A stretch of 21,235 bases of DNA, taken from Gemmatimonadota bacterium (lineage in GTDB: Bacteria; 4572-55; J002). Position numbers and translations under genes: made by a program. The stretch is taken from positions 1 to 21,235 of the forward strand of contig RFFQ01000179.1 in the NCBI GenBank assembly GCA_003697105.1. The letters are read 5' to 3'. Below the pieces are notes generated by a model that made no database searches, was not told the origin of the DNA, and was given only the letters and a program-made list of their open reading frames with translations. This document shows positions 2,241 through 21,235 of this stretch, one piece after another (position 1 is the first letter of the stretch; every line of letters begins with the position of its first letter).

Positions 2241-2251
2241 CAGGTGTCGTG

Positions 2252-3572: not shown

Positions 3573-3920
3573 ATGGCACATATTACCGAAGCCCAAATTT
3601 GGGAGAAATTAAAAGAGTTTTATGACCCTGAAATTCCCATCAATGTGGTTGACTTGGGTCTGATTTACGGGGTTCAAGTGCGGGGTACTCAGGTTTCCAT
3701 CAAGGCAACTCTGACCGTGCCTGCCTGCCCACTTAAAGGGCACATGATCGATGGTATTCGGCGTACTATCCTTCAATTGGAGGGTGTCGATCATGTGGAT
3801 GTGGAATTGATTTGGACACCTCCGTGGAGTCCAGCGTTGATGACTGATGAAGGTAAACGCCGCTACCAGCAACTTCGTGACGCCTCTCATCCAAATCCAA
3901 TTCGTATAGGACGCCGGTAA
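3573..3920 (+). CDS. DUF59/MIP18-family metal-sulfur cluster assembly protein (SufT/PaaD-like)
   Basis: This 115-residue protein carries the family hallmarks: DPEIPINVVDLGLIY at residues 18-32, TVPACP at 48-53 with the conserved Cys52, and WTPPWSP at 81-87. Family members help mature or deliver Fe-S clusters (SufT, human MIP18/FAM96B) or take part in phenylacetate oxygenase assembly (PaaD). No phenylacetate genes are nearby. The gene directly follows a radical SAM gene whose product needs a [4Fe-4S] cluster, so a role in cluster supply to that enzyme is a reasonable inference. A short tail after the WTPPWSP motif (about 28 residues) is basic and probably disordered. Confidence 0.88.
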   Translation: MAHITEAQIWEKLKEFYDPEIPINVVDLGLIYGVQVRGTQVSIKATLTVPACPLKGHMIDGIRRTILQLEGVDHVDVELIWTPPWSPALMTDEGKRRYQQLRDASHPNPIRIGRR

Positions 3921-4912: not shown

Positions 4913-6541
4913 ATGTCTCTTAATAACTTATGGGTGCGAGTTGGTATCGCATTTATCGCGTTGGGTTTAGCGGTGTTTTATCTGATGCCGACGTACCAGT
5001 TGTATTCTTTAAAAGCAAAAGATACGCTGACCCCGGCAGATTCGCTTAAAATTGAAGAATTGAGCGAAAAAGCCATTAATTTGGGTCTGGACTTGCAAGG
5101 TGGGATGCACCTTGTGGTTGAAATTGATAAGAGCGAACTCTCAGGAGAAGATGAAATTGAAGAAGCCCGGGATCGCGCTCTGCAAGTCATCCGTAACCGT
5201 ATTGATGAATTTGGGGTGCGAGAACCGATCATCCAAAAACAAGGTGATGAACGTATTATCGTGCAATTGGCAGGCGTGACCGACCCGGATCGCGCAAAGG
5301 CTATCGTCAATCGAACGGCATTCTTGGAATTTAAATTGGTCGAAAAGCCAGACGAATTGAATGAACTTCTACAAAAAATTGATGAAACCTTAGCGTCCAG
5401 CTCCTCCGATACCGCGGGTTTCAATACGGATCAAAATCCATTCACCAAATTGTTATCCAGTTCCGGTAGTGATCTGCTCATCCCCGATGAGAATCTGGAT
5501 GAAGTCCGCCGGATTCTGGGAGACCCGGTGCTCTACCGCCGAGCCGACCCCCAAGATAAACCCAAATATGCCGGCGACCCGCGGGTGAAACGCTTGATCA
5601 AAAAACAAAATGAAATTGCCTATGGAAAACGAGAACAATACCCCGATGGACAGTATTACACCCCCCTATTTCTGCTGAAATCCAAAGCAGAACTCACCGG
5701 GGAACATTTGAAAGATGCCCGGGTTGAGCTGGGACAGGGCTATGACCCGAAAACAGCGGGTAAACCGTATGTCTCCTTGACCTTCACTAGTGAAGGGGCG
5801 GACCTCTTTGCCGATGTGACCGGTGCCAACATCAAAGAACGGTTAGCTATTGTATTAGACGGCCGAGTCCAATCCGCTCCGGTAATTCAGGATAAAATTC
5901 GGGGCGGTCGGGCGCAAATCACCGGTGATTTTAGCATGGAAGAGGCAAAAGACCTGCGGGTTGTCCTCAAAGCCGGTTCCTTGCCCGTACCGATCCGGAT
6001 TGAAGAGGAACGCACCGTTGGCGCCACGCTGGGGGCAGACTCCATCCGCAGTGGGCAACTGGCAACCATCGTGGGTCTGGCGGCAGTGGCTGTGTTTATT
6101 GTGATCTGGTACAAACTGTCCGGTTTTGTGGCGTTGCTGGCGTTGGTGCTCAACGTGGTCTTTATCATGGCGGCGTTGGCTGGGTTTGGTGCTACCCTGA
6201 CCCTGCCCGGTATTGCCGGTATCATCTTGACTATCGGGATGGCGGTCGATGCAAACGTGCTCATCTTTGAACGTATCCGGGAAGAATTGCGCACCGGCAA
6301 AAGTGTCCGGGCGGCAATTGATGCCGGTTATGGACGCGCGTTCCGTACAATTTTGGATGCCAATGTGACAACCTTGATTACGGCGATAGTCCTCTACCAA
6401 TTTGGGACGGGTCCCATCAAAGGGTTCGCGGTTACCCTGAGTATCGGGATTGTGATGAGTATGTTTACCGCTATTTTTGTCACCCGTATTGTCTTTGATG
6501 CCATTCTGGCAAACCGTCCCCTGCAAAAATTGAGCATCTAA
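4913..6541 (+). CDS. secD: Protein translocase subunit SecD
   Basis: SecD works with SecF in the inner membrane and uses the proton-motive force to complete export of Sec substrates. The 542-residue protein has an N-terminal membrane helix (about 7-27), the P1 signature NLGLDLQGGMHLVVEI near residues 57-71, a large periplasmic region, and a C-terminal bundle of five membrane helices (from about 380). That bundle contains GMAVDANVLIFERIREE with the conserved Asp446, implicated in proton transfer. GGAGG at 4900-4904 lies 8 nt before the ATG. About 70 residues between the P1 signature region and the second periplasmic block (around 155-245) are charged and poorly conserved. secF follows after 19 nt, and the two are clearly an operon. 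Confidence 0.97.
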   Translation: MSLNNLWVRVGIAFIALGLAVFYLMPTYQLYSLKAKDTLTPADSLKIEELSEKAINLGLDLQGGMHLVVEIDKSELSGEDEIEEARDRALQVIRNRIDEFGVREPIIQKQGDERIIVQLAGVTDPDRAKAIVNRTAFLEFKLVEKPDELNELLQKIDETLASSSSDTAGFNTDQNPFTKLLSSSGSDLLIPDENLDEVRRILGDPVLYRRADPQDKPKYAGDPRVKRLIKKQNEIAYGKREQYPDGQYYTPLFLLKSKAELTGEHLKDARVELGQGYDPKTAGKPYVSLTFTSEGADLFADVTGANIKERLAIVLDGRVQSAPVIQDKIRGGRAQITGDFSMEEAKDLRVVLKAGSLPVPIRIEEERTVGATLGADSIRSGQLATIVGLAAVAVFIVIWYKLSGFVALLALVLNVVFIMAALAGFGATLTLPGIAGIILTIGMAVDANVLIFERIREELRTGKSVRAAIDAGYGRAFRTILDANVTTLITAIVLYQFGTGPIKGFAVTLSIGIVMSMFTAIFVTRIVFDAILANRPLQKLSI

Positions 6542-6560
6542 CCCAAAAGGAGAATACGTA

Positions 6561-7517
6561 ATGGAGATTTTTACCAACACAAATGTAGATTTTATTGGCA
6601 AACGGAAAGTTGCCTTTATCGTCTCACTGGTGATCATTTCACTGGGAATCATTTCCTTGATTGTTCACGGTGGACCCCGTTTAAGTATTGATTTTGAAGG
6701 AGGATTGCAACTTCAATTTCGCTTTGAAAAACCCGTCGATATTGCTGAAATTCGCCGTATTTTAGCCGAAACCGGACACCCCTCGGCTGAAATCCAGATG
6801 TTTGGCGCTGAAACCGAAGTGTTGATCCGTATCAAAGGCACAGAAGGAACCACCGAAACGGAGGAAGGCAAAAATCCGTTGGTACATGAAATCCAAGAAG
6901 CATTTGCCGAAGCCTTCCCCGATAATCCGGCAATCATTGACCGCCAAGAGCAGGTTGGTCCCAAGGTAGGGCAGGAACTGAAAGGACAAGCCCTTTTGGC
7001 AATTTTATATTCCATGATCGGGATTATTTTGTACATCTGGTGGCGGTTTGAGTTTAAATTTGGTGCCGCTGCTGTTATTGCACTTTTTCATGATGTGGTG
7101 ATTACCATTGGGGTGTTTTCCCTGATCGATCATGAAATTTCATTGACGATCATCGCCGCCCTTTTGACGATTGTGGGATATTCCCTCAATGATACCATCG
7201 TGGTCTTTGACCGTATCCGCGAAAATCTGCGGAATATGCGCCGTAAAGAATATAGCGAAATCATTAATGCCAGCATCAATCAGACCCTGAGCCGGACGTT
7301 ATTAACTTCCGGTACGACCTTTTTGGTGGTGCTGTCCCTGATCATCCTTGGCGGCTCGGTGATTCAGGATTTCGGAATTGCCTTATTGGTCGGGATTGTC
7401 GTTGGTACGTATTCCTCTATTTTTGTTGCCAGCCCCATGCTGGTGGAATGGCAAGCGCGTCAAGAAGCCAATCAAAAGGCGAAAGTACGCACCAACGTCA
7501 AACGGAAGAAAAAATAA
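6561..7517 (+). CDS. secF: Protein translocase subunit SecF
   Basis: SecF pairs with SecD in the accessory export complex. The 318-residue protein has a first membrane helix at about 17-36 and a short periplasmic domain containing the SIDFEGGLQLQFRF signature. Five further helices follow, with the VGYSLNDTIVVFDRIREN motif that holds the conserved acidic residue. AAAGGAG (6545-6551) lies before the ATG. The C-terminus is a short, strongly basic cytoplasmic tail (KVRTNVKRKKK). A terminator follows directly, closing the secDF transcript. Confidence 0.97.
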   Translation: MEIFTNTNVDFIGKRKVAFIVSLVIISLGIISLIVHGGPRLSIDFEGGLQLQFRFEKPVDIAEIRRILAETGHPSAEIQMFGAETEVLIRIKGTEGTTETEEGKNPLVHEIQEAFAEAFPDNPAIIDRQEQVGPKVGQELKGQALLAILYSMIGIILYIWWRFEFKFGAAAVIALFHDVVITIGVFSLIDHEISLTIIAALLTIVGYSLNDTIVVFDRIRENLRNMRRKEYSEIINASINQTLSRTLLTSGTTFLVVLSLIILGGSVIQDFGIALLVGIVVGTYSSIFVASPMLVEWQARQEANQKAKVRTNVKRKKK

Positions 7518-9216: not shown

Positions 9217-10365
9217 TTGGCAACGGAATGTTTCCGCATTACTTACGATAGCCCAGAATGTGACGCCCGGTTAGGGGAAGTCATAACGCCCCATGGCACG
9301 TTTGAAACGCCCATTTTTATGCCCGTCGGGACACAAGCAACGGTCAAAGGGATGACCCCCGAAGAAATGGAGCGCAACGGGGCGCAGATCATTCTCAACA
9401 ATACCTATCACCTCTACCTGCGCCCGGGACACGACCTCATCCGCCAAGCGGGAGGTTTGCACGCGTTTCAAGGCTGGTATAAACCCATTTTAACCGATAG
9501 TGGCGGGTTTCAGGTCTTTAGCCTCAGCAGTTTCCGCAAAATTACAGAAGAGGGGGTGCAATTTCAGGCACATCATGATGGAGCCTATCACATGTTGACT
9601 CCAGAAAAGGTGATGGACATCCAACAGGCGCTCGGTTCAGATATTGCCATGGCGTTTGACGAATGCCCGCCCCCAGATTGCGGGTACGAGTACGCAAAAA
9701 AATCCAATAAAATTACCCTAGATTGGGCACGCCGTTGCAAGAAACATCACGCAACCATTCCCCATCCAACTACTCCCGGCCAACTGCTCTTCGGCATCTG
9801 TCAGGGAAATATTTATACCGATTTACGCGCCGAAAGCACCCGCGCCATAGTCGATTTGGACTTTGACGGAAATGCCATTGGCGGGCTTTCCGTAGGGGAA
9901 GAAAAAAATGCCACGCGCGAGATGGTGCAACTTGCCTGCGAAATTTATCCCCCAACCAAACCCCGTTATTTGATGGGGGTAGGGTATCCTGAAGATATAG
10001 TGGAAGCGGTGGCGATGGGCGTTGATATGTTTGATTGTGTCGTCCCAACACGCTATGCCCGTAATGGAACGGTGTTTACCCACACCGGAAAATTGGTACT
10101 ACGCCATGCCGCCCGGAAAGAAGAATTCTTCCCGATTGAAGAAGATTGTGAATGCTATACCTGCCAGAACTTTAGCCGAGCATATCTGAAACATCTCTTC
10201 CAAACCCATGAAATGCTCGGTCCCCGCCTCGCCACGTGGCACAATATCTATTTTTGGCAGAAATTTACCCGCAATATGCGGGCGGCTATCCGGGAAAATC
10301 GATTTTTGAGCTGGAAACAAGCCTTTTTAGAAAAATATTTATCGTCTGAAAATTCAGACCATTAG
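9217..10365 (+). CDS. tgt: Queuine tRNA-ribosyltransferase (tRNA-guanine transglycosylase)
   Basis: Tgt exchanges guanine at position 34 of tRNAs with GUN anticodons for the queuosine precursor preQ1. The 382-residue protein has the catalytic Asp94 in DSGGFQ, a GGLSVGE motif at 223-229, the second conserved Asp in VDMFDCVVPTR (D273), and the zinc site C311-x-C313-x2-C316 with His342. The start codon is TTG at 9217, supported by GGGAG at 9204-9208, 8 nt upstream; the nearby ATG at 9228 is out of frame. yajC follows after 14 nt, a common neighbour in bacteria. No other queuosine genes are present in the window. Confidence 0.96.
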   Translation: MATECFRITYDSPECDARLGEVITPHGTFETPIFMPVGTQATVKGMTPEEMERNGAQIILNNTYHLYLRPGHDLIRQAGGLHAFQGWYKPILTDSGGFQVFSLSSFRKITEEGVQFQAHHDGAYHMLTPEKVMDIQQALGSDIAMAFDECPPPDCGYEYAKKSNKITLDWARRCKKHHATIPHPTTPGQLLFGICQGNIYTDLRAESTRAIVDLDFDGNAIGGLSVGEEKNATREMVQLACEIYPPTKPRYLMGVGYPEDIVEAVAMGVDMFDCVVPTRYARNGTVFTHTGKLVLRHAARKEEFFPIEEDCECYTCQNFSRAYLKHLFQTHEMLGPRLATWHNIYFWQKFTRNMRAAIRENRFLSWKQAFLEKYLSSENSDH

Positions 10366-10379
10366 AGGAGGATAAACCC

Positions 10380-10721
10380 TTGGAACTATTAACCGCACTA
10401 CTCATGGCACCACCGCCCGGCGGCAGTGGTGAGGCACCGAGTTTTTTGGTGCAAATGATGCCCTTTTTCGTGATCTTTGCCATTATCTATTTTATGATGA
10501 TCCGTCCCCAACAACAAGAACACAAAAAACGAATGGAGATGCTGGAAAATCTGAAAAAAGGTGACCGGATTGTCACCACCGGTGGTATCATCGGGCGGAT
10601 TGACCACCTGAAAGGGAAAGATGTGGTGGTGGTACAGATCGCCAATAACGTGAAAGTGGAAATGCGCCGCAGCGCGGTGGGCGAAGTCATCACCAAAGAG
10701 AATACAGAGGAGAAAAAATAA
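10380..10721 (+). CDS. yajC: Preprotein translocase subunit YajC
   Basis: YajC is a small inner-membrane protein associated with SecDF. The 113-residue protein has a short N-terminal periplasmic segment rich in P and G, one membrane helix (FLVQMMPFFVIFAIIYFMMI, about 23-42), and the hallmark RPQQQEHKKRMEML followed by the cytoplasmic KGDRIVTTGGIIGRI domain. The start is TTG at 10380, preceded by AGAGGAGG (10364-10371) at 8 nt; the ATG at 10404 would leave too little leader before the helix. The stop overlaps def by one base (TAATG). Confidence 0.95.
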   Translation: MELLTALLMAPPPGGSGEAPSFLVQMMPFFVIFAIIYFMMIRPQQQEHKKRMEMLENLKKGDRIVTTGGIIGRIDHLKGKDVVVVQIANNVKVEMRRSAVGEVITKENTEEKK

Positions 10722-11242
10722 TGGCTGTGTTAGATATCCGTATTTATGGCGATCCGGTTCTGCGCAAAACATGCGAACCCGTTACGGAAATTACACCCGA
10801 ATTACTCAAACTTGCCGACGATATGATTGAAACCATGTATGAAGCAAACGGGGTCGGTTTAGCCGCACCGCAAGTGGGCAAAACAATCCGTTTAACGGTG
10901 ATTGACCCTCAAGATGACGTGGAGACAAATCCGAACTATGATTACCCCTTAGTGCTATTTAATCCGGAGGTCATCGAAAGCGAAGGAAGCGATGTCTTTG
11001 AGGAAGGATGCCTCAGCATCCCGGGTGTCCGCCGCAATGTGACCCGTCCCCAGCGGGTCGTCGTAAAAGCACTAGACCGGCATAACAACGAAATCCGCAT
11101 TGAAGATGACCAACTTCTCGCCCGGGTACTCCAGCACGAAATTGACCATCTCAACGGGGTACTCTTCATTGATCATCTCTCCATGATTGACCGTCTTGCC
11201 GTTGAACCACAATTACGCAAGCTGAAAACATCCAAGATATAA
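10721..11242 (+). CDS. def: Peptide deformylase
   Basis: Peptide deformylase removes the N-formyl group from new proteins in the cytoplasm. All three motifs are present in the 173-residue protein: GVGLAAPQVG (44-53), EGCLS (95-99) and QHEIDH (138-143). Metal ligands are Cys97, His139 and His143, with catalytic Glu140. The ATG overlaps the last base of yajC, so translation is probably coupled. A terminator follows 5 nt after the stop. fmt, often next to def, is not in the window. Confidence 0.97.
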   Translation: MAVLDIRIYGDPVLRKTCEPVTEITPELLKLADDMIETMYEANGVGLAAPQVGKTIRLTVIDPQDDVETNPNYDYPLVLFNPEVIESEGSDVFEEGCLSIPGVRRNVTRPQRVVVKALDRHNNEIRIEDDQLLARVLQHEIDHLNGVLFIDHLSMIDRLAVEPQLRKLKTSKI

Positions 11243-11247
11243 ACCAA

Positions 11248-11279
11248 GAAGGGTTGCCATAGGGTAACCCTTTCTTTTT
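11248..11279 (+). terminator. Rho-independent terminator after def
   Basis: AAGGGTTGCC (11249-11258) pairs with GGTAACCCTT (11263-11272; one G-T pair) around a 4-nt loop, followed by TTTCTTTTT. It closes the tgt-yajC-def unit. Confidence 0.85.
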
Positions 11280-11338
11280 ACGGGCGCGGGCTTTGGAATC
11301 CATTCCGAAACCACTCGCGATTCGCTCAGGAGGATACA

Positions 11339-12445
11339 ATGTCAATTCGGACACCATTTTACGATAAACATATTGCCGCCGGCGCACGCATGGTCGATTT
11401 TGCCGGCTATGAAATGCCCATTCAGTACCAGGGCATTATTGCGGAACACGTGACCGTCCGCCAGTCGGTCGGTATGTTCGACTTATCGCACATGGGTGAA
11501 TTTTGGGTCAGTGGGGCAGATGCCCTCCCCTTTTTGATGAAAATGATGACCAACAATGCCAGTAAACTTGCGCCGGGGCAGGTGATGTATAGCGCGATGT
11601 GTTACGAGGACGGCGGTATTGTGGATGACCTTTTGGTGTACCGCGATATGGCGGAAAACCGGTATCTGCTGGTGGTCAATGCGGCTAATATTCAAAAAGA
11701 TTTTGATTGGCTCCAGCGCCATCTGGAAGGGGATGTAACGCTGGAAAATAAAAGTGCCGAAACCGGTTTGCTGGCGATTCAAGGACCCCAAGCAGAGGCA
11801 GTTGTCGCTAAAATGACAGACCTCAATCTGGCAGACATGCGCTATTACCATTTCGACTACGGTAAAATTGCTGGCTATGATGCCTTAATCTCTCGCACCG
11901 GTTATACCGGCGAAGATGGCTTTGAACTCTACCTCCCGCCAGAAGCGTGTCCTGCCGCCTGGGATGCCGCCGTAGAAGCCGGCGCCGAGTTTGGCATCAA
12001 ACCGGTCGGCTTAGGCGCCCGGGATACGCTCCGGTTAGAAATGAAAATGGCACTTTATGGCAATGATATTGACCACACCACCAACCCGATTGAAGCGGGT
12101 CTGGGATGGATTTGCAAAACAAAAAATCGAGAATTTATCGGGCGCGATGCGATTGTCCGCATGAAAACAGAAAAACCTGCCCGCAAGCTGATCTGCTTTG
12201 AAATGCAGGACAAAAATATCCCCCGCCCCCACTATAAAATTTTTGCCGGAGACCAAGAAGTGGGCACCGTCACCAGTGGTACTAAATCCCCGTCGTTAAA
12301 GATCGGCATCGGTTTGGGCTATGTCCAACGTGAGTTCACCCAAGAGGGCACGGAACTGCAGATCGAAATCCGCCAGAAAAAAGCCCCGGCAAAAGTGGTT
12401 AAGCCTCCCTTTTACAAAAACGGCACAGTTAAAATCGGTAAGTAA
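11339..12445 (+). CDS. gcvT: Aminomethyltransferase, glycine cleavage system T protein
   Basis: GcvT transfers the methylene group from the aminomethyl-lipoyl H protein to tetrahydrofolate and releases ammonia. The 368-residue protein matches the family over its whole length: FAGYEMPIQY near the start, DLSHMGEF (48-55), GGIVDDLLVY (92-101) with the conserved Asp pair, SRTGYTGEDGFELY, and a C-terminal domain with TSGTKSPSLKIGIGLGYV. AGGAGG at 11328-11333 precedes the ATG by 5 nt. gcvH and gcvP are not in the window, so this is either the first gene of a split system or the related YgfZ-type protein; the full set of motifs favours GcvT. It lies between two terminators and is a single-gene unit. 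Confidence 0.93.
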   Translation: MSIRTPFYDKHIAAGARMVDFAGYEMPIQYQGIIAEHVTVRQSVGMFDLSHMGEFWVSGADALPFLMKMMTNNASKLAPGQVMYSAMCYEDGGIVDDLLVYRDMAENRYLLVVNAANIQKDFDWLQRHLEGDVTLENKSAETGLLAIQGPQAEAVVAKMTDLNLADMRYYHFDYGKIAGYDALISRTGYTGEDGFELYLPPEACPAAWDAAVEAGAEFGIKPVGLGARDTLRLEMKMALYGNDIDHTTNPIEAGLGWICKTKNREFIGRDAIVRMKTEKPARKLICFEMQDKNIPRPHYKIFAGDQEVGTVTSGTKSPSLKIGIGLGYVQREFTQEGTELQIEIRQKKAPAKVVKPPFYKNGTVKIGK

Positions 12446-12566: not shown

Positions 12567-13868
12567 ATGCGAATTACTTTTATTCGTCCAAATCTGGCAG
12601 ATATGCGTTCTACGGACGCGATGCCACCGCTTGCGTTTGCGGTTTTAGCCGGTGCCACACCTCCAGACTGCGAACTTACGCTACAAGATGAACGATTAGC
12701 ACCGATCTCCCTCGATTCACCCACAGACCTCGTTGCCATCACGGTGGAGACCTACACCGCGCGGCGGGCATACCAAATTGCCAGTGATTTTCAAGCTCGG
12801 CATGTACCGGTAGTGATGGGAGGGTTTCATCCCACATTTTTACCACAAGAAGCCGACGCTCACGCCGACGCTGTCGTTATCGGGGATGCAGAAACGGTCT
12901 GGCCTCAGATTGTCCAGGATGCCCGACACGGCAAATTACAACCCATCTATCGCCAACGCAATGGTTCCCCCACAGTGCAGTACCACTGTGACCGCTCGAT
13001 TTTTGCGAAAAAGAGGTACGTCCCGGTCCATCCGGTCCAGTTCGGACGGGGATGCAAATTTAACTGCGAGTTTTGCTCAATTCATGTCTTTTATGGGCAC
13101 CCTCACCGCCACCGTCCGGTTGCCGACATAGTGCGGGAGATTGAACAGCTAGACCGGCGTCACATCTTTTTTGTGGATGACAATCTCTTTTACCATCCGC
13201 AACAAACTGAGACCTTTTTACAGGCATTAATTCCTCTCCACCTCCGCTGGACTGGCCAAATTAGCATTGATATTGCTCGTCATTCACGTCTAATGGACTT
13301 GCTGGCAAAAAGTGGTTGTATTATGGCGTTGATTGGCTTTGAGTCCTTGAATCCACACAATCTTACCCAAATGCACAAAGCGTGGAACCGCCCACAAGAC
13401 TATTCCCGCGCCATCCGGGAATTTTACGAGCGGGACATCATGCTCTACGGCACGTTTGTGCTGGGGTATGATGAAGACTCCCTAGATACTTTTGATCGCA
13501 TCCTTGATTTTGCGTTGGAACAGCACTTTTTTCTGGCAAATTTTAACCCGTTGACACCGATGCCCGGCACGGCACTTTATGCCCGGCTCAAGCGTGAGCA
13601 CCGCTTGATCTATGACCGCTGGTGGTTACACCCAGACTTCCGCTACGGGAACGCGGTTTTTCACCCGCGAGGCATGACCGCCGAACAACTGGCGGCAGGT
13701 TGCTACCGTCTTCGGCAAGAATTTAACCGCTATTCCTCGATGTTCCGGCGTGCCTACGCCGCCCCTCATCGAAACTTAGACCGGATGGGATTATTTCTGG
13801 CAGCGAATCTCATCTCACGGCGTGAAATCCACAAAAAACAGGGGCTTCCGTTGGGAGGAACGGCATGA
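12567..13868 (+). CDS. B12-binding-type radical SAM protein 1
   Basis: This 433-residue enzyme has a cobalamin-binding-type Rossmann domain at about 1-140 (DLVAITVETYTARRAYQIA, then VPVVMGGFHPTFLPQEA and DAVVIGDAETVW). A radical SAM barrel follows, with C163-x3-C167-x2-C170 (CKFNCEFC) and IFFVDDN. The usual DxHxxG cobalamin motif is not visible, as in many members of this class. Known relatives methylate unactivated carbon or cyclise lipids and tetrapyrroles (HpnP, BchE, BchQ/R, Tes/Grs types), but the substrate here cannot be assigned. ATG 12567 is used (CGGAG at 12555-12559); a TTG lies just upstream. Its stop overlaps the next ATG (ATGA), so it is coupled to copy 2. The C-terminal ~90 residues share a basic RREIHKKQGLPLG ending with copies 2 and 4. 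Confidence 0.85.
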   Translation: MRITFIRPNLADMRSTDAMPPLAFAVLAGATPPDCELTLQDERLAPISLDSPTDLVAITVETYTARRAYQIASDFQARHVPVVMGGFHPTFLPQEADAHADAVVIGDAETVWPQIVQDARHGKLQPIYRQRNGSPTVQYHCDRSIFAKKRYVPVHPVQFGRGCKFNCEFCSIHVFYGHPHRHRPVADIVREIEQLDRRHIFFVDDNLFYHPQQTETFLQALIPLHLRWTGQISIDIARHSRLMDLLAKSGCIMALIGFESLNPHNLTQMHKAWNRPQDYSRAIREFYERDIMLYGTFVLGYDEDSLDTFDRILDFALEQHFFLANFNPLTPMPGTALYARLKREHRLIYDRWWLHPDFRYGNAVFHPRGMTAEQLAAGCYRLRQEFNRYSSMFRRAYAAPHRNLDRMGLFLAANLISRREIHKKQGLPLGGTA

Positions 13869-15205
13869 AAATCACCCTAATAAAGCCTAATATCGGACGG
13901 ATGGAACATAGTCTTTACGTGGATGAAGCCCGCATGGAACCTCTACAACTGGGTGTGCTGGCGGCATTGACCCCACCGGACGTGGAAGTGGTATTGTACG
14001 ATGACCGCATGGAAACCATTCCCTATGATGAGCCAACCGATTTGGTAGCCATCACCGTGGAGACCTTCACGGCACGACGTGCGTACGAAATCAGTGCCGA
14101 ATTTCGCCAACGGGGTGTACCGGTCATCATGGGTGGGATGCACCCGACACTCATTCCTGAAGATGCCGCGCCCCACGCGGATGCGATTTTGACCGGCGAT
14201 GCCGAGTTTGTATGGTCGCATGTGGTGGAGGATGCGCAACGCGGCAGATTGCAACCCCGATATACGGCAGATGTTGGACGGGTGCAACCCGGCACCCCTA
14301 CCCGGCGCGATATTTTTCAGGGTAAAGGTTATCTGCCGATCACGTTAGTGCAATTCAGCCGGGGATGCCGGTTCGCCTGCGAATTTTGTGCGGTCAGTGC
14401 TTATTTTGGTCAAACCCACCTTGTGCGGAACGTGCGAGAGGTGGTAGAGGAGATCGAAGCCCAAGAGCGCCGGCTGATTTTCTTCGTCGATGACAATCTG
14501 CTGGCGAATCATGCGGCCGCTAAACGGCTTTTCCGGGAATTGATCCCGCTTAAGATTCGCTGGGTCTCACAGGCGAGTATCGATATGACACAGGATCGGG
14601 AACTGATGCAACTCATGGTGAAAAGTGGCTGTCTGGGGCATGTCGTCGGATTTGAATCGATCAACCCCCCCAGTCTGCGTGGAATGAAAAAAACACCGAA
14701 CCTCGCTACTGCTGGGGAAGGCTACGCCGAGCCGATCCGTATCCTCAAAAACCACGGTTTGCAAATTTGGGCGGCGTTCACCCTCGGCCATGACTCCGAT
14801 ACGCTCGACTCGATTCGGCGCACGCTGGATTTTGCCTTACATCATAAATTTACCTTTGCCGCCTTTAATATTTTAATGCCGTATCCCAATACACCATTAT
14901 ACCGGCGGTTACAGGCGGAAAATCGATTGATGTACGGCGGAAAATGGTGGGTACATCCCCAATATCGCTTTAATTACGCCGCCTTTCAACCGGCACAAAT
15001 GACTGCTACCCAATTGACCCGCGCCTGTTTCGAGGCACGCTCCCAATTTAACAGCATCAGCTCGATTTTCCGCCGGGCATGGGACTTCCAAACAAATATG
15101 CGCTCTCTGTACCGCTTCGCCCTCTATCTGACGTACAACCCCTTGTTTCGTAAAGAAACTTTCAAAAAACAAGGCATGAAACTCGGTTTGCGTCACGAAC
15201 ATTAA
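13865..15205 (+). CDS. B12-binding-type radical SAM protein 2
   Basis: The 446-residue protein is a close paralogue of the preceding one. The N-terminal domain carries VVLYDDRMETIPYDEPTDLV, ITVETFTARRAYEI and VIMGGMHPTLIPEDA, then DAILTGDAEFVW. The cluster motif CRFACEFC is at C168, C172 and C175, and LIFFVDDN follows. The C-terminus has a tail (KETFKKQGMKLG) like copies 1 and 4. It starts inside the stop of copy 1, so both are made from one message. After the stop there are 202 nt without a gene. Differences from copy 1 in the barrel (QASIDMTQDRELM against QISIDIARHSRLM) suggest a related but separate reaction or substrate position. The function is inferred only to the class. Confidence 0.86.
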   Translation: MKITLIKPNIGRMEHSLYVDEARMEPLQLGVLAALTPPDVEVVLYDDRMETIPYDEPTDLVAITVETFTARRAYEISAEFRQRGVPVIMGGMHPTLIPEDAAPHADAILTGDAEFVWSHVVEDAQRGRLQPRYTADVGRVQPGTPTRRDIFQGKGYLPITLVQFSRGCRFACEFCAVSAYFGQTHLVRNVREVVEEIEAQERRLIFFVDDNLLANHAAAKRLFRELIPLKIRWVSQASIDMTQDRELMQLMVKSGCLGHVVGFESINPPSLRGMKKTPNLATAGEGYAEPIRILKNHGLQIWAAFTLGHDSDTLDSIRRTLDFALHHKFTFAAFNILMPYPNTPLYRRLQAENRLMYGGKWWVHPQYRFNYAAFQPAQMTATQLTRACFEARSQFNSISSIFRRAWDFQTNMRSLYRFALYLTYNPLFRKETFKKQGMKLGLRHEH

Positions 15206-15407
15206 CGGGTAAAATTACATAAAAACGTCCGAAGTAGCGTGCCTGTTTGAACGCGGGGGCGGATAAATCCCGTAAGAATCTCAGAAGAAGTTCCTTTGTT
15301 TTGAGGGGTATAGGGCATCTTGCGACCACCGGGTAAAATACACGGTATCTTATGCGGGTATTACAGCTCGCCCTCAAAAACCCCGCACGAATAAGAGGAT
15401 ATGACTC
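15206..15407. other. Intergenic region in the radical SAM cluster
   Basis: This 202-nt stretch has no credible gene and no clear terminator. It contains several G/C-rich short inverted elements and AT-rich patches (for example TAAAAT at 15337-15342), but I could not find a matched -35/-10 pair. It probably holds the promoter of the alpha/beta hydrolase gene. Confidence 0.4.
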
Positions 15408-16400
15408 GTGTTACGCTTCAGGGGATTACCTTGGTTATGCCTGTACAGTACAATGCTTTTCGCCCAACCCAACATGGAACACCCTTTTCATACCCCGCAA
15501 TTGCGGGAAAATCCTCCAATGCTGAATTTCGACCAACCGGATACCTCCGCTGTCATGCGAACATACCGGATGTATTACGGTCTGGAATTTGAGGATGTGG
15601 ATCATCATTTTGGTTATTTTCAAGTGGATAGCATTGCTCTCGCCGCACATATTTTCTGTCCCCAAGAACCACGAGGTACTGTGATTGTGTTACACGGCTA
15701 TCTCGATCATGTTGGATTGGTAGCAGGGGCTATTCGCGCTTGTGTGGGGCAGGGGTATGCGGTGGCCGCATATGACCTGCCGGGGCATGGCTTTTCTTTG
15801 GGTACACCTGCCACAATTGGCGATTTTGCAGAATATCAATCCGGGTTGGAGACGTTCTTGAACCTCTGCCAGTCAAAACTTCCTGCCCCGTATTATGCTA
15901 TCGGGCATAGCGCCGGGGCGGCAATTTTAATCGATTATATCTTGACGCGGGACGAACCTCTCTTTGCAAAAGCGGTGTTTTGTGCACCGCTCGTGCGGTC
16001 GGCACACTGGCGCGGCTCAAAATTAGGGGTTTTCCTCACCGGTTGGTGGATAAAAAGCGTACCGCGCCGCCAATTTCAGGGTAGCTCCGATTCAACATTT
16101 GTGGAACGGCTCAAAACAGACCCGTTTTCGCTTCGGAACGTTCCTCTTTCGTGGGTCAAGGCACTCTTCCGTTGGGAAAAGCGGCTACAACGCTACTCTC
16201 CTAGCGACCTACCCGTGCTGATTTTACAAGGGAATCACGATACTACCGTTGATTGGCGCTATAATCTGTCCTTTTTGCGGCAAAAATTCACGGCGGCACA
16301 GGTCATTGAATTTCCCGGTGCAGGACATCATCTATTGAACGAAGCAGAGCCATACCGGACGCAGATTTACGATAATCTCAACACTTTTCTCACCGAATAA
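15408..16400 (+). CDS. Alpha/beta hydrolase (serine aminopeptidase S33 / monoacylglycerol-lipase-like)
   Basis: The 330-residue protein has a complete catalytic apparatus for an esterase or lipase: oxyanion-region HGYLDH (about 96-101), nucleophile Ser168 in GHSAG (166-170), Asp278 in GNHDTTVDW and His307/308 in GAGHHLL. The fold pattern DLPGHGFS is typical of lysophospholipase-type members. The start is GTG at 15408 with AGAGGA (15393-15398) upstream. The first 20 residues are hydrophobic and may be a weak signal peptide (cleavage after LFA), so it may act in the periplasm; a shorter start at an internal Met is also possible. It sits between radical SAM copies 2 and 3, so it may hydrolyse an ester or thioester of the pathway intermediate. 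Substrate unknown. Confidence 0.85.
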   Translation: MLRFRGLPWLCLYSTMLFAQPNMEHPFHTPQLRENPPMLNFDQPDTSAVMRTYRMYYGLEFEDVDHHFGYFQVDSIALAAHIFCPQEPRGTVIVLHGYLDHVGLVAGAIRACVGQGYAVAAYDLPGHGFSLGTPATIGDFAEYQSGLETFLNLCQSKLPAPYYAIGHSAGAAILIDYILTRDEPLFAKAVFCAPLVRSAHWRGSKLGVFLTGWWIKSVPRRQFQGSSDSTFVERLKTDPFSLRNVPLSWVKALFRWEKRLQRYSPSDLPVLILQGNHDTTVDWRYNLSFLRQKFTAAQVIEFPGAGHHLLNEAEPYRTQIYDNLNTFLTE

Positions 16401-16484
16401 CGGTTTACCCTTCTCTTGAATCCCTCGGGAGAGAGGCTAGAGTATCAAAATCACCCGTAACCTCCGTCGAACAGGTTTTACACC

Positions 16485-17795
16485 ATGAAAATTGCGCTCA
16501 TCTCCCCCCGAGGAGCCTTATACAAGCATACCGGCGGTATCTGGAAGAAGTCTCTCCGCTATGCACCGCTGACCCTAACGACATTGGCATCGCTTGTGCC
16601 AGCGGAGTTGAACGCGGAGGTCATGTTGGTCGATGAGGGAGTCACCGATGTGGATTTACATCTGGACGCCGACCTGATCGGCATCAGCGCAATCACCGGT
16701 AGTGCCCTCCGCGCTTACGAACTGGCAGACCATTACCGGCGACGGGGTTTACCGGTGATCTTAGGGGGGGTGCACCCCACCCTAATGCCGGATGAAGCGG
16801 CGGAACATGCGGATACCGTTGTAGTCGGTTACGCCGAGCAAACCTTCCCCCAATTATTACGCGATTTTTCCGCGGGACACTTGCAAGCCCGGTACGTTCA
16901 ATCGCCAGATTTAAGCCTCGCGAATTTGCCCCATCCCCGTCGTGACTTGCTGAATCCACATGATTACACCACCATCCATACTAGCGAAGCAACACGCGGT
17001 TGCATTCACCAGTGTGACTTTTGCGTCGTACCTAGTGCTTGGGGACGCCCACGACACAAACCGGTGGCGGAAGTGATCGATGACATCCGCCAGATGCGGG
17101 CAAAAAAGCTCATCTTCCTTGACCTCAATCTGATCGCCAATGTGGCATATGCCAAGGAACTTTTTGCGGCATTGATCCCACTTCGGGTCACGTGGGGCGG
17201 GTTGGCAACAACGTTGATCGCCGGGGATGACGAATTGCTTGATCTGGCCGTGCGGAGTGGCTGCCGGGGCTTGCTGATCGGCTTTGAGACGCTCGCCGAG
17301 GAGGCGTTGCAATCGGTGCGCAAAGGGTTTAACCGGCATCATGAGTACCGCATTGTGATCGATAAGCTCCACGCTCACAAAATCGCTCTGATGGGCACCT
17401 TTGTGTTTGGCTTCGATCATGACACGAAGGAGACATTCGATCAGGTAGCGGATTTTGTCCTGGATTCTCACATCGATTTACCACGCTTTGCCATTTTAAC
17501 CCCTTTTCCGGGCACACCGTTATATCGTAAATTGGTTGCAGAAGATCGTATCCTGACTCAAAATTGGAGTCTCTACGATGGTCAGCATGTGGTCTTTCAA
17601 CCGTACCAGATGTCGCCAGAGGAACTTTGGCGGGGCACAGAAGCCGTCTGGAAACGGGTTTACCGGTATCGCTCCATTGCTCGGCGATTAGCGGGTGCGC
17701 GGGTGCAACTACCGCTGGTGATTCCGGCAAACATCGGCTACCGGTTTTATGCCTATCGCTTGCACCAATTTTATACCTGCGATTGGAGGAATTAA
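16485..17795 (+). CDS. B12-binding-type radical SAM protein 3 (divergent copy)
   Basis: The 436-residue enzyme has the same two-domain layout but is clearly the outlier of the four. Its N-terminus (LISPRGALYKHTGGIWKK) lacks the DDR-x-E-x-I-x-x-DEPTDLV block shared by the others, although the later motifs VILGGVHPTLMPDEA and DTVVVGYAEQTF remain. The cluster motif is CIHQCDFC at C173, C177 and C180, followed by LIFLDLNLIAN instead of FFVDDN. The C-terminus ends YRFYAYRLHQFYTCDWRN and lacks the basic K-x-x-G-x-x-LG tail. The ribosome site is weak (CAGG, 16469-16472). It is followed after only 1 nt by copy 4. A different reaction, such as cyclisation, coupling or a distinct methylation, is possible but cannot be read from the sequence. 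Confidence 0.85.
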   Translation: MKIALISPRGALYKHTGGIWKKSLRYAPLTLTTLASLVPAELNAEVMLVDEGVTDVDLHLDADLIGISAITGSALRAYELADHYRRRGLPVILGGVHPTLMPDEAAEHADTVVVGYAEQTFPQLLRDFSAGHLQARYVQSPDLSLANLPHPRRDLLNPHDYTTIHTSEATRGCIHQCDFCVVPSAWGRPRHKPVAEVIDDIRQMRAKKLIFLDLNLIANVAYAKELFAALIPLRVTWGGLATTLIAGDDELLDLAVRSGCRGLLIGFETLAEEALQSVRKGFNRHHEYRIVIDKLHAHKIALMGTFVFGFDHDTKETFDQVADFVLDSHIDLPRFAILTPFPGTPLYRKLVAEDRILTQNWSLYDGQHVVFQPYQMSPEELWRGTEAVWKRVYRYRSIARRLAGARVQLPLVIPANIGYRFYAYRLHQFYTCDWRN

Positions 17796-17796
17796 G

Positions 17797-19170
17797 ATGC
17801 GCTTAACTCTGATTCATCCGTGTATCGGACGGCGCCTGGGTGCGCCGTATATCCGGTCGTGGCAAATGGAACCCCTTGCCCCGGCAGTACTCGCCGGATT
17901 GACCCCACCGGAGATTGACATTACCTTTTATGATGACCGGCTAGAGCGCATCCCCTATGACGAACCCACCGATCTGGTGGCAATCAGCGTGGAAACCTAC
18001 ACCGCCCGCCGGGCATATCAAATTGCTTCTGAATATCGCCGGCGAGGTGTACCGGTTGTGATGGGTGGCTTTCATGCCACCCTTGTACCGGAGGAGGTTC
18101 AACAATACGCCGAAACCGTGATCATTGGCGAGGCAGAGGAGATTTGGCAGGATTTTATCGACGATTTTCGGACCGGAGCGCCACATCCCGTTTACCGGGC
18201 GGTTCGGCGACCCTCCCGCCGAGGGGTTCGCCCGGATCGTTCTCTTTTTACAGGCAAGCGGTATCTGCCGGTTGGTTTGGTTGAGGCGGGTAGAGGGTGC
18301 CAGTTCACTTGCGATTTTTGCGCGATCAGCGCCTATTTTGGCAATACCCAAACTCGCCGTCCCGTCGATGAAATCATTGATGAAATTCGCCAAATCCACA
18401 AACCACTTCTTTTTTTTGTGGATGACAACATTGCCGCCAATATGGATCAAGCGAAACCGTTTTTTCAGGCATTGATTCCCTTGAAGATCAAATGGGTCGG
18501 GCAAGCGAGCATCAACGCCGCCCATGATGAGGAATTTTTGCACCTGATCCGCGCTAGTGGCTGTCAGGGCTTATTGATCGGCTTTGAGACACTCAATCCA
18601 GACAATCTGCGGCAGATGCGCAAGGGGTTCAATACCATGAACGGAGGGTACGGCGCGGCGTTGGCAAATCTGCGGCGTTATGGCATCCGGCTCTACCCGA
18701 CGTTTGTCATCGGCTACGATCAGGATACCGAAGAGACCTTCCGGGAAGTCCTGGAATTCTCGCTCTATCACCAATTTTACATGGTGGCGTTTAACCACTT
18801 GACCCCGTTCCCCGGTACGCCCCTTTACACCCGCTTGGAACAGGAGGGACGGCTACGGTTTGACAAATGGTGGCTCGACCCGGCATACCGTTACGGGATG
18901 GTGCCGTTTATGCCCCAACACCTCGATCCGGTTACGCTACAGGAAAAATGTGTAGAAGCGCGAAAAGCATTTTATAGCTTGAGTTCGATTGTTAAACGCA
19001 GTCTGGATTTTCGGGTCAATTGCCGCAATTTTTTGATGGGGTCTAACTTTTTCGTGATTAACCTACTGCTGCGGAAGGAAGCTCAACAGCGGCGGGGCTA
19101 TCCCCTAGGTGATGAAGCGTTTCGTGGCGAATTGCTCAAGGTGGGGTCATACCATGAAATTCACGTTTAG
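17797..19170 (+). CDS. B12-binding-type radical SAM protein 4
   Basis: The 457-residue protein is closest to copies 1 and 2. It has FYDDRLERIPYDEPTDLV and ISVETYTARRAYQIA, then VVMGGFHATLVPEE (an Ala in place of the Pro of HPT). The cluster motif CQFTCDFC is at C168, C172 and C175, followed by LLFFVDDNIAAN. ATG 17797 is chosen because GGAGG (17785-17789) lies 7 nt upstream, although an in-frame start exists 48 nt earlier inside copy 3. The tail KEAQQRRGYPLG is longer than in the other copies (an extra ~20 residues). It overlaps the next gene by 17 nt, so both are co-translated. Function only to class level. Confidence 0.86.
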   Translation: MRLTLIHPCIGRRLGAPYIRSWQMEPLAPAVLAGLTPPEIDITFYDDRLERIPYDEPTDLVAISVETYTARRAYQIASEYRRRGVPVVMGGFHATLVPEEVQQYAETVIIGEAEEIWQDFIDDFRTGAPHPVYRAVRRPSRRGVRPDRSLFTGKRYLPVGLVEAGRGCQFTCDFCAISAYFGNTQTRRPVDEIIDEIRQIHKPLLFFVDDNIAANMDQAKPFFQALIPLKIKWVGQASINAAHDEEFLHLIRASGCQGLLIGFETLNPDNLRQMRKGFNTMNGGYGAALANLRRYGIRLYPTFVIGYDQDTEETFREVLEFSLYHQFYMVAFNHLTPFPGTPLYTRLEQEGRLRFDKWWLDPAYRYGMVPFMPQHLDPVTLQEKCVEARKAFYSLSSIVKRSLDFRVNCRNFLMGSNFFVINLLLRKEAQQRRGYPLGDEAFRGELLKVGSYHEIHV

Positions 19171-20266
19171 GTATGCCACTCCAAAAGATGACCCAGAGAT
19201 TCGGGAATTATTGCGCACCGTGCCGGTGCCGGGCGCGGTGCCAGTGACTTACGAGCGGGAACCCAATTATTTTCTTGGGTGCGGGGTGATGGGGCAGACC
19301 TGTCAGGTGCTCATTTCCCGGCACACCGCGAGTGGCAAACTGGCAGGGATTGCTTGCCGGGCAATCCGCCCGATGTATGTCAATAGTGAGGTGCGGCAGA
19401 TTGCCTATTTAAGCCAACTTCGGGTGCATCCGCAATTTCAAGGATATTGGATCACCTCAAAAGGATTCCGGTTTTTGCGGCAGGTACACGATGATCATCC
19501 AGCAGAGGGACAGCTAACCACCATTATTGAGGGCAACCGGCTAGCAAAATCAGTTCTAGTGGATAAACCCCGCCGTCATTTTCCGGTATATCGCTGGTGG
19601 GATCGCTTTTGTGTGTTGGCAATTGTGGTTACTCAATTCCGAAAAGATTTTAAGACATATCAAGATTTTGAAAATTCCGTTCCTACCGCATCCGATCTAC
19701 CTGAAATTATCGCTTTTTTGAACAAACATGGTGCAAAACGGCAGTTTTTCCCGGTTTACACGACCTCTGATTTTGCAGAATCCCCACTAACCCGAGATTT
19801 TCAGCCGGCGGATTTCCGGCTCGTGCGCCGGCAGGGGCAGATCGCCGGTGTGATGGGCTACTGGGATCAATCCCAGTTTAAGCAGACGGTTGTACAGGGA
19901 TATACCGGAATGTTACGCGGGTTGCGCCCGTTCTACAATGCGATAATGCCGTTTGTCGGGCATCCCCGTTTGCCAGAAGTGGGTAAGCCCATCCGCTACA
20001 GCTACGCTAGTTTTTGGGCAGTAAAAGAAGAGGATCCGACAATATTCGATCACCTCCTCCGGGCGATTGTTGCCCTTGCCGCAGAACGCCATCAGGCGTA
20101 TGTAATGATTGGACTTTCCACGCGGGACCCACTGTTTGCGCTTGCCCGAAAATGGCGTCATATCCCCTATTATAGCCACCTTTACACCGTCACTTGGAAC
20201 GATGGAGCCCCTTTCCATGAACAGCTCGACTCCCGCCCCCCCTACCTTGACATCGCCGCGTATTGA
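19154..20266 (+). CDS. GNAT-like acyltransferase (~370 residues)
   Basis: The 370-residue protein starts at ATG 19154 inside the end of radical SAM copy 4, with AAGGTGG about 9 nt upstream. Residues 1-150 read like a GNAT fold: RYATPKDDPEIRELL opening, a beta strand YLSQLRVHP (85-93) and an acetyl-CoA-loop-like QFQGYWITSKG (94-104) that only loosely fits the Q/R-x-x-G-x-G/A pattern. Residues 200-350 may be a second GNAT-like half. GNAT enzymes transfer acyl groups from acyl-CoA to amines or hydroxyls. The acceptor is unknown. The degenerate loop leaves open that it binds another acyl donor or is not catalytic. Its 3' end overlaps the next gene by about 50 nt. Confidence 0.65.
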   Translation: MKFTFRYATPKDDPEIRELLRTVPVPGAVPVTYEREPNYFLGCGVMGQTCQVLISRHTASGKLAGIACRAIRPMYVNSEVRQIAYLSQLRVHPQFQGYWITSKGFRFLRQVHDDHPAEGQLTTIIEGNRLAKSVLVDKPRRHFPVYRWWDRFCVLAIVVTQFRKDFKTYQDFENSVPTASDLPEIIAFLNKHGAKRQFFPVYTTSDFAESPLTRDFQPADFRLVRRQGQIAGVMGYWDQSQFKQTVVQGYTGMLRGLRPFYNAIMPFVGHPRLPEVGKPIRYSYASFWAVKEEDPTIFDHLLRAIVALAAERHQAYVMIGLSTRDPLFALARKWRHIPYYSHLYTVTWNDGAPFHEQLDSRPPYLDIAAY

Positions 20267-21008
20267 CCCCTGCCGGGGTAACCGCCTACAAGGACGTATC
20301 CAGCGGGTGGAATCCCTGACCTCCCTTGAAAAAAACCGCATGTTTGAATTATTGCAAAACCATTTTTTAGGAATCCATCATGCCCAATTTGAGCAAGATT
20401 TAGCCGAAAAATCGTGGGTGATCTTCCTCGATGAGGTACAAACCGGACAAATTCAGGGTTTTACTACCCTGATGCTCCTCCAGATAGAATTGGATGGTCA
20501 CCCCTATGCAGCCCTTTTCTCCGGGGACACGATTATCAACCGGGAATTTTGGGGAGAAACGGTGTTGCCCCGCTTGTGGATTCGATGGGCATTACAGGTA
20601 GCGAGGTCAATTCCGGTTCAGCCGGTATATTGGCTGTTAATCTGCTCCGGGTATAAAACATACCGCTTTTTGCCCCTTTTTTATCGCGAATTTTACCCCC
20701 ATTTTCGGCAAGCTACCCCACCCCACATCCAAAAAGTCATCGATACATTTGCCCGGCAAAAATTCGATACCGCATATGAGCCACAGCGTGGAATTGTACG
20801 TTTCGCGAATCCCTCGCCGCTACGTGCCGGAGTTGCCGAAATTACCCCCAACCGCCTCAAAGACCCACATATTGCCTTTTTTGCCCAAAAAAACCCGGGA
20901 CATCTTCACGGGGATGAACTGGTCTGCTTGACCCGGCTCGCTGTAGATAATCTAACTAAAGCGGGAAAACGGATGTTGGAAGGAGGAAGGAGGAAGGATG
21001 AAGGATGA
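20217..21008 (+). CDS. Uncharacterised protein, possibly acyltransferase-like, with repeat-encoded C-terminus
   Basis: I do not recognise this 263-residue protein with certainty. ATG 20217 is preferred (TGGAG at 20203-20207, 9 nt upstream); ATG 20202 is in frame and would add 5 residues. The central part has a Trp/Tyr-rich alpha/beta pattern (GFTTLMLLQIELDG, FSGDTIINREFWG, and YWLLICSGYKTYRFLPLFYREFYP at about 138-161) that could be a GNAT-like or acyl-CoA N-acyltransferase fold. There is no signal peptide. It overlaps the preceding GNAT-like gene by 50 nt, which indicates translational coupling and probably a shared complex or pathway. The last nine or so residues (EGGRRKDEG) and the stop are encoded by the heptanucleotide repeat, so the C-terminus depends on repeat state. 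Confidence 0.6.
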   Translation: MNSSTPAPPTLTSPRIDPCRGNRLQGRIQRVESLTSLEKNRMFELLQNHFLGIHHAQFEQDLAEKSWVIFLDEVQTGQIQGFTTLMLLQIELDGHPYAALFSGDTIINREFWGETVLPRLWIRWALQVARSIPVQPVYWLLICSGYKTYRFLPLFYREFYPHFRQATPPHIQKVIDTFARQKFDTAYEPQRGIVRFANPSPLRAGVAEITPNRLKDPHIAFFAQKNPGHLHGDELVCLTRLAVDNLTKAGKRMLEGGRRKDEG

Positions 21009-21222
21009 GGGATGAGGGATGAAGGAGGAAGGAGGAAGGATGAAGGATGAAGGATGAAGGATGAAGGATGAAGGATGAGGGATGAAGGATGAAGGATGAA
21101 GGAGGAAGGAGGAAGGAGGAAGGAGGAAGGAGGAAGGATGAAGGATGAGGGATGAAGGATGAAGGATGAAGGAGGAAGGAGGAAGGAGGAAGGAGGAAGG
21201 ATGAAGGAGGAAGGCGGAAGGA
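20978..21222. repeat. Heptanucleotide tandem repeat (35 in-phase units)
   Basis: From 20978 the sequence divides without a break into 35 seven-base units of three main types: GGAAGGA, TGAAGGA and TGAGGGA, with a single GGAAGGC near the end (21209-21215). A degenerate unit TGAATGG follows at 21223-21229. The plus strand is almost all purine apart from T at the first position of many units and one C. Unit order is 3 G-type, 1 T-type, 2 TGAGGGA, 1 T, 2 G, 5 T, 1 TGAGGGA, 3 T, 5 G, 1 T, 1 TGAGGGA, 3 T, 4 G, 1 T, GGAAGGC, 1 G. Short tandem heptamers of this kind are known in cyanobacteria (STRR elements) and elsewhere. The array begins inside the final gene. Confidence 0.97.
21063..21201. repeat. 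Higher-order duplication inside the heptamer array
   Basis: The 69 bp at 21063-21131 are identical to 21133-21201 (offset 70 = 10 units). The shared block is one T-type, one TGAGGGA, three T-type and four G-type units, plus six bases before it. This indicates a segmental duplication of about ten units rather than only single-unit slippage. Confidence 0.85.
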
Positions 21223-21235
21223 TGAATGGTAAAAG

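Follow-up and report, generated by a model that had tools for sequence, protein, structure and literature searches.

Does the compact run of seven genes (g1 to g7) near the end of contig RFFQ01000179.1 of a Gemmatimonadota bacterium (assembly GCA_003697105.1) constitute a single biosynthetic pathway, and if so, what could such a pathway produce? Four of these genes encode radical S-adenosylmethionine (rSAM) proteins, and an earlier note, made from the sequence of this stretch, had proposed that all seven take part in a multi-step modification of one hydrophobic scaffold, which a hydrolase and two acyltransferase-like proteins would release or cap. The window analyzed here is the whole of this contig (C61, 21,235 bp), part of a genome of 4.18 Mb that is assembled in 199 contigs and is 97% complete. 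We are very confident that g1, g2 and g4 to g7 belong to a genuine biosynthetic cluster that is conserved and mobile and has apparently not been described before, and we give about an even chance to its product being an amide-linked lipid, or a metabolite resembling one, with a carbon skeleton reworked by B12-type rSAM enzymes. All seven open reading frames (ORFs) lie where the earlier note had placed them, with exactly the overlaps (4, 17 and 50 nt) and gaps (202, 84 and 1 nt) that it had described from the ORF coordinates, and the features are as follows.

g1, 12567-13868, plus strand: radical SAM protein with a B12-binding domain, opening gene of the optional g1-g2 pair
g2, 13865-15205, plus strand: radical SAM protein with an N-terminal domain of B12 type, other member of that pair
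g3, 15408-16400, plus strand: alpha/beta hydrolase, BipL-phospholipase-like, probably outside the conserved system
g4, 16485-17795, plus strand: B12-binding radical SAM protein, core
g5, 17797-19170, plus strand: B12-binding radical SAM protein, core
g6, 19154-20266, plus strand: predicted tandem GNAT, N-myristoyltransferase-like acyltransferase (structural model), core
g7, 20217-21008, plus strand: predicted single GNAT-fold protein (structural model), core
Purine-rich 7-bp minisatellite, 21009-21235, no strand: runs to the contig end, at the position of the GH3 gene in other genomes

The existence of the cluster is carried by its recurrence in other genomes. An initial survey of 145 sampled genomes contained one clear g6 homolog in such a context, in genome G119, where it is flanked by two rSAM genes; here g4-g5-g6-g1-g2 form one block, and ~5 kb further a g7 homolog is followed directly by a GH3 gene. 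Scanning genome contigs with an rSAM alignment confirmed 457 relatives, and the locus counts given throughout refer to the best 80 of these 457; they are lower bounds, since some contigs are short and the simple ORF caller misses genes. The g4 gene is present in 70 of the 80 loci and stands directly before g5 in 63, while g5 precedes g6 in 61 and g6 precedes g7 in 53; GH3 follows g7 in 61 loci, and the pair g1-g2 occurs in that order in 24. The most frequent order is g4-g5-g6-g7-GH3 (26/80), and in two loci (L027 and L085) the genes are arranged as in the window, g1-g2-g4-g5-g6-g7, with GH3 next. The 80 loci are spread over 15 named phyla. Thus, a core of g4-g5-g6-g7-GH3 with an optional g1-g2 pair keeps its order across at least 15 phyla, and the absence of any such conservation elsewhere, which the earlier note had named as the mark of a chance grouping, is contradicted by dozens of genomes. 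Among the cluster genomes, g7 occurs in 44 of 45, mostly as one copy, and GH3 in 42 of 44, mostly adjoining g7. The gene set of the earlier note therefore holds for g1, g2 and g4 to g7, but it was incomplete, as it lacked the near-constant partner GH3. Distances between genomes correlate across all seven genes, GH3 included, most strongly for the pair g7-GH3 (rho 0.80). In the larger rSAM tree, built with FastTree, phylum grouping is often broken: a Halieaceae copy is placed among Chloroflexota, and Citrobacter, Malikia, Sulfuricurvum and an Elusimicrobiota group together, which indicates horizontal transfer. Neither the profile models nor the literature searched contained a matching pathway or an account of this gene combination, in line with the earlier note, which had recognized no known pathway with this exact set; the literature searches were limited to open-access papers, and a description may exist elsewhere. 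A pathway found in at least 15 phyla that has no name in the searched models and open papers leaves a sizeable gap in the chemistry of bacterial lipids or natural products.

The four rSAM proteins form the enzymatic center of the cluster. The C-x3-C-x2-C motif attributed to all four is indeed kept in each of them, and in their ortholog families it is retained in 33/33 (g1), 28/28 (g2), 66/69 (g4) and 81/81 (g5) sequences. All four exceed the Pfam cut-off for Radical_SAM (53.9, 42.5, 57.0 and 51.5 bits for g1, g2, g4 and g5, respectively). The N-terminal cobalamin-type domains that had been ascribed to the four are borne out in g1, g4 and g5, which pass the B12-binding cut-off with 34.1, 49.9 and 37.8 bits, while g2, at 28.2 bits against a cut-off of 32.1, falls just below it. 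The earlier note had also called for a phylogeny against known rSAM enzymes. In a posterior mean site frequency (PMSF) mixture-model tree of 70 rSAM sequences, g1, g2, g4 and g5 each fall into one clade (Shimodaira–Hasegawa-like approximate likelihood ratio test, SH-aLRT, 99, 100, 99 and 98, respectively), and each clade crosses phyla. The FastTree tree concurs on the four families, save for the long-branch g1 of G119 and the separately labelled Citrobacter copies, and places true HpnJ outside the cluster rSAM clade. Orthologs of g2 reach 71% identity in Anaerolineales, and those of g5 are 55–70% identical in the 80 loci. Two cluster rSAMs are found in 20 of 45 genomes and four in 18 of 45; the remaining genomes have three or five to six, in part owing to truncated contigs and distant paralogs. 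The cluster offers two to four related rSAMs presumably acting on one molecule.

Two further rSAM genes were observed apart from such clusters. The window's own genome contains a fifth, distant relative (9652-11340 of locus L116, on G000:C103) that is 38% identical to g2, has neighbor genes that look unrelated, and branches outside the four families. In G119, an extra g4-like rSAM gene (6050-7402 of locus L117, on G119:C122) lies ~20 kb from the cluster, near an apparent MMPL-type transporter gene.

The products of the last two genes of the cluster, g6 and g7, match neither Pfam nor NCBIfam models, and their assignment comes from AlphaFold models with a mean predicted local distance difference test (pLDDT) score of 94.6 for g6 (47 homologs) and 92.8 for g7 (54 homologs). 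Both are predicted to adopt GNAT folds, and g6 is predicted to be like N-myristoyltransferase (NMT) throughout its length. The earlier note had described a GNAT-like protein and an unrecognized partner, both counted as acyltransferase-like; the models agree with this for both proteins. The g6 model aligns with A. fumigatus NMT over its full length (VIA-align, Z 24.7, 306 residues, 3.4 A), and its top-ranking Foldseek match is the mycobacterial tandem GNAT 7q3a. Of 47 g6 homologs, 45 share the alignment column of the C-terminus; of the two exceptions, one ends in Leu three columns later, and the other is apparently frameshifted at its end. In most rows of a structure alignment of the predicted model, this terminus coincides with that of NMT, whereas the C-termini of g7 are ragged (12 homolog rows). 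Human NMT1 uses its C-terminal carboxylate as the catalytic base (PMC7048800). Since the terminus of g6 is likewise fixed, its terminal carboxylate may, by analogy, serve as a catalytic base. Nevertheless, g6 differs from the eukaryotic enzyme in being bacterial, in sharing about 10–12% sequence identity with it, and in having no Pfam match. For g7, the best structural match is NatD (Z 13.5), with AAC(2') aminoglycoside acetyltransferases fitting about as well as other GNATs; D61, K65 and an SGDT motif are conserved, and Cys237 is near-invariant. A distant tandem-GNAT relative of g6 (24–25%) was also noticed at 293-1471 of locus L004 (G036:C39), followed directly by an apparent ATP-grasp protein at 1475-2728, with no rSAM seen in 14 kb; this suggests that bacterial NMT-like acyltransferases form a broader family with members in other pathways.

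Precedents for the chemistry come from three known systems. In the OlsH/OlsI ornithine-lipid pathway of Planctomycetes, the GH3-like OlsH makes N-acyl-ornithine from a free fatty acid (PMC12493201). Like OlsH, which forms amides from fatty acids and amines in an ATP-dependent manner, the cluster ligase has a bacterial GH3 fold and lies beside lipid genes. However, the one cluster GH3 protein compared, from G119, reaches 35.5 of the 620 bits of the OlsH model NF052613, the OlsH operon as described holds OlsG and OlsI, with rSAMs and NMT-like GNATs belonging to the present cluster instead, and the window's genome yielded no GH3 match. The cluster GH3 being far from OlsH, the reaction type of the latter is a lead and not an assignment. 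The second precedent is NMT, as set out above. The third is provided by the tetraether lipid synthase (PMC9433317) and the GMGT synthase (PMC11186832), which are rSAM enzymes performing C-C chemistry on unactivated chains of archaeal lipids; their substrates are archaeal ether lipids.

An amide-linked lipid is the most likely product because of the combination of an NMT-like g6, a second GNAT, lipid-type accessory enzymes and the bacterial GH3 precedent. In this scheme, GH3 would adenylate a fatty or similar acid and couple it to an amine, as OlsH does; g6 would take a second acyl group, probably a long one, from acyl-CoA and place it on an amine in the manner of NMT, using its own C-terminal carboxylate as the base; and g7 would either perform a third acyl step or shape the acceptor. 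The rSAM proteins g4 and g5, joined by g1 and g2 where present, would act one after the other at different unactivated carbons by methylation, ring formation or C-C coupling, reactions that sequence does not distinguish. The hydrophobic scaffold of the earlier note accordingly survives in part: a multi-gene pathway is borne out, and GH3, the NMT-like g6 and the lipid-type accessory genes make a lipid-type scaffold likely, with a hopanoid or bacteriochlorophyll type disfavored. A bolder version, which we regard as rather unlikely, is that of a new class of bacterial membrane lipids in which GH3 and g6 attach two acyl chains by amide bonds to one amine head, two or four B12-dependent rSAMs render the chains methyl-branched, cyclized or cross-linked, and the pathway spreads horizontally, plasmids included.

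The accessory genes vary from locus to locus. A fatty-acid-desaturase-type protein lies near the cluster in 27 of 80 loci, a DUF4440/SnoaL-like protein with a membrane anchor in 23, PAP2 in 15 plus 4, a Rieske protein in 14 and a membrane protein of an unidentified family in 13, with MMPL-type, AurF and hexapeptide transferase proteins being rarer. The desaturase was considered as an obligatory partner and rejected, as FA_desaturase was found neither in the window's own genome nor in most loci. In Citrobacter portucalensis 64A:C, from a yellow-legged gull, the cluster resides on a mobilizable IncFIB/IncFII plasmid (11361-23456 of locus L096, on NZ_CP134684.1) in the order g7-GH3-g4-g5-g6-g1-g2-PAP2-c1-rSAM-desaturase, the fifth rSAM being g4-like and divergent from g4. 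An enterobacterium thus carries the set in transferable form, which makes a common metabolite the probable starting material. The cluster also offers a bacterial NMT-like acyltransferase, and there are cultured carriers, among them Malikia spinosa 83 and Neoroseomonas oryzicola KCTC 22478, for a direct search for the product. No near copy of the Citrobacter version was found in 5,426 E. coli genomes or on other plasmids of the collection. An alpha-2-macroglobulin/DUF2300 gene group lies about 5 kb away from the Citrobacter cluster.

Several points weigh against an amide-linked lipid. Its substrates and product are inferred, and GNAT and GH3 folds also handle polar amines and aromatic acids. 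The nearest solved rSAM relatives are AprD4, of apramycin biosynthesis, and 9ccb, named merely a radical SAM protein, and are not lipid enzymes. Cobalamin binding by the cluster rSAMs is predicted from sequence, with the g2 domain below the Pfam cut-off, and AprD4-type proteins may retain the B12 domain without the cofactor. The correlated distances could in part stem from common host ancestry. Finally, neither GH3 nor FA_desaturase was found in the window's genome, and therefore the pathway may be incomplete here or draw on another acyl source. The search for GH3 (PF03321) gave no match in this genome, about 97% complete, but C61 stops 227 nt past g7, inside a repeat and exactly at the usual place of GH3 elsewhere, and hence its absence is not proven; the gene is either lost or within an assembly gap. 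The repeat, made of GGATGAA/GGAGGAA units (20968-21235), starts in the last codons of g7 and reaches the contig end. A 27-mer of it recurs in the genome only on C49 (30384-30417), and the minisatellite may have made the assembly stop here.

The main rival is a polar secondary metabolite of an amino-acid or aminosugar, antibiotic-like kind. Here, the target would be a small polar core, with GH3 and the GNATs joining or acetylating its amines and the rSAMs responsible for methylation or rearrangement. We rate it as possible, though clearly behind the lipid, and it is the chief rival because the solved rSAM nearest by sequence, the closest match of g5 in the Protein Data Bank (3.8e-10), is the aminoglycoside enzyme AprD4. 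The sporadic, plasmid-borne spread is typical of secondary metabolites, and the fit of g7 to AAC(2') enzymes agrees as well. However, the recurrent desaturase, PAP2 and Rieske neighbors are of lipid type, g6 resembles NMT over its full length, and no glycosyltransferase, nonribosomal peptide synthetase or polyketide synthase family is prominent among the identified recurrent neighbor clusters.

An NMT fold with a fixed C-terminus in g6, together with weak matches of the rSAMs to models of enzymes for ribosomally synthesized and post-translationally modified peptides (RiPPs), such as ApyD, would also suit protein modification, with g6 acylating a protein and the rSAMs methylating peptide carbons in a RiPP-like manner. 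This appears improbable, as known GH3 ligases use free acids and amines and no recurrent precursor gene was present among neighbor families of at least 90 residues, shorter ORFs not having been examined.

Tailoring of a polycyclic scaffold, whether hopanoid, sterol or bacteriochlorophyll, by relatives of HpnJ, HpnR or BchE is very unlikely. It is suggested by the best NCBIfam matches, namely BchE for g1, g4 and g5 and PhpK for g2 with HpnJ close behind, and by the likeness of the Rieske accessory to ketosteroid hydroxylases and the sterol enzyme SdmA. Indeed, BchE, HpnJ, HpnR, PhpK and the ladderane model TIGR04072 share with the cluster rSAMs the two-domain architecture and CX3CX2C, and their matches are weak but significant. 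Nevertheless, no score reaches its cut-off (BchE, 79–101 of 481 bits; HpnJ, 64–83 of 577.6; HpnR, 37–53 of 650; TIGR04072, 55–71 of 360); the scores are ~5 to 18 times below the cut-offs, and the cluster rSAMs form their own clade of four ortholog families, outside which true HpnJ lies. Squalene-hopene cyclase was not found in the window's genome and is clear in just 12 of 44 genomes searched, which disfavors a hopanoid scaffold and excludes it as a requirement. The hopanoid, bacteriochlorophyll and ladderane machineries are thus disfavored, as is that of OlsH ornithine lipids.

The hydrolase g3 has a different history from its neighbors. Its identity as an alpha/beta hydrolase was read correctly, as it matches the S33/Hydrolase_4 profile (Hydrolase_4, 122.7 bits) and reaches 275.7 bits against BipL (NF052543), short of the cut-off of 450. 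Its place in the pathway is not upheld: none of the 80 loci was found to have a g3 homolog next to the cluster, and g3 occurs in 1 of 97 other sampled genomes, for which reasons it is taken as probably a bystander. Of the proposed releasing and capping set, the two acyltransferase-type proteins therefore stay and the hydrolase probably does not. The N-terminus of g3 is hydrophobic and signal-peptide-like by eye, so that g3, in contrast to the remaining proteins of the cluster, is probably exported. An accidental grouping of unrelated genes, to which the lack of conservation of g3 and the 202 and 84 nt gaps on its two sides might point, applies to g3 alone and is barely credible for the rest, given an order conserved in dozens of loci and 15 phyla.

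Elsewhere in the window, no Rfam family was found, and a viral origin was considered and rejected, as the g6 patterns matched no viral contig. Upstream on the same contig, another radical SAM-like protein with CxxxCxxC is encoded at 2249-3571, followed directly at 3573-3920 by a small protein that was identified by eye as PaaD/MIP18-like.

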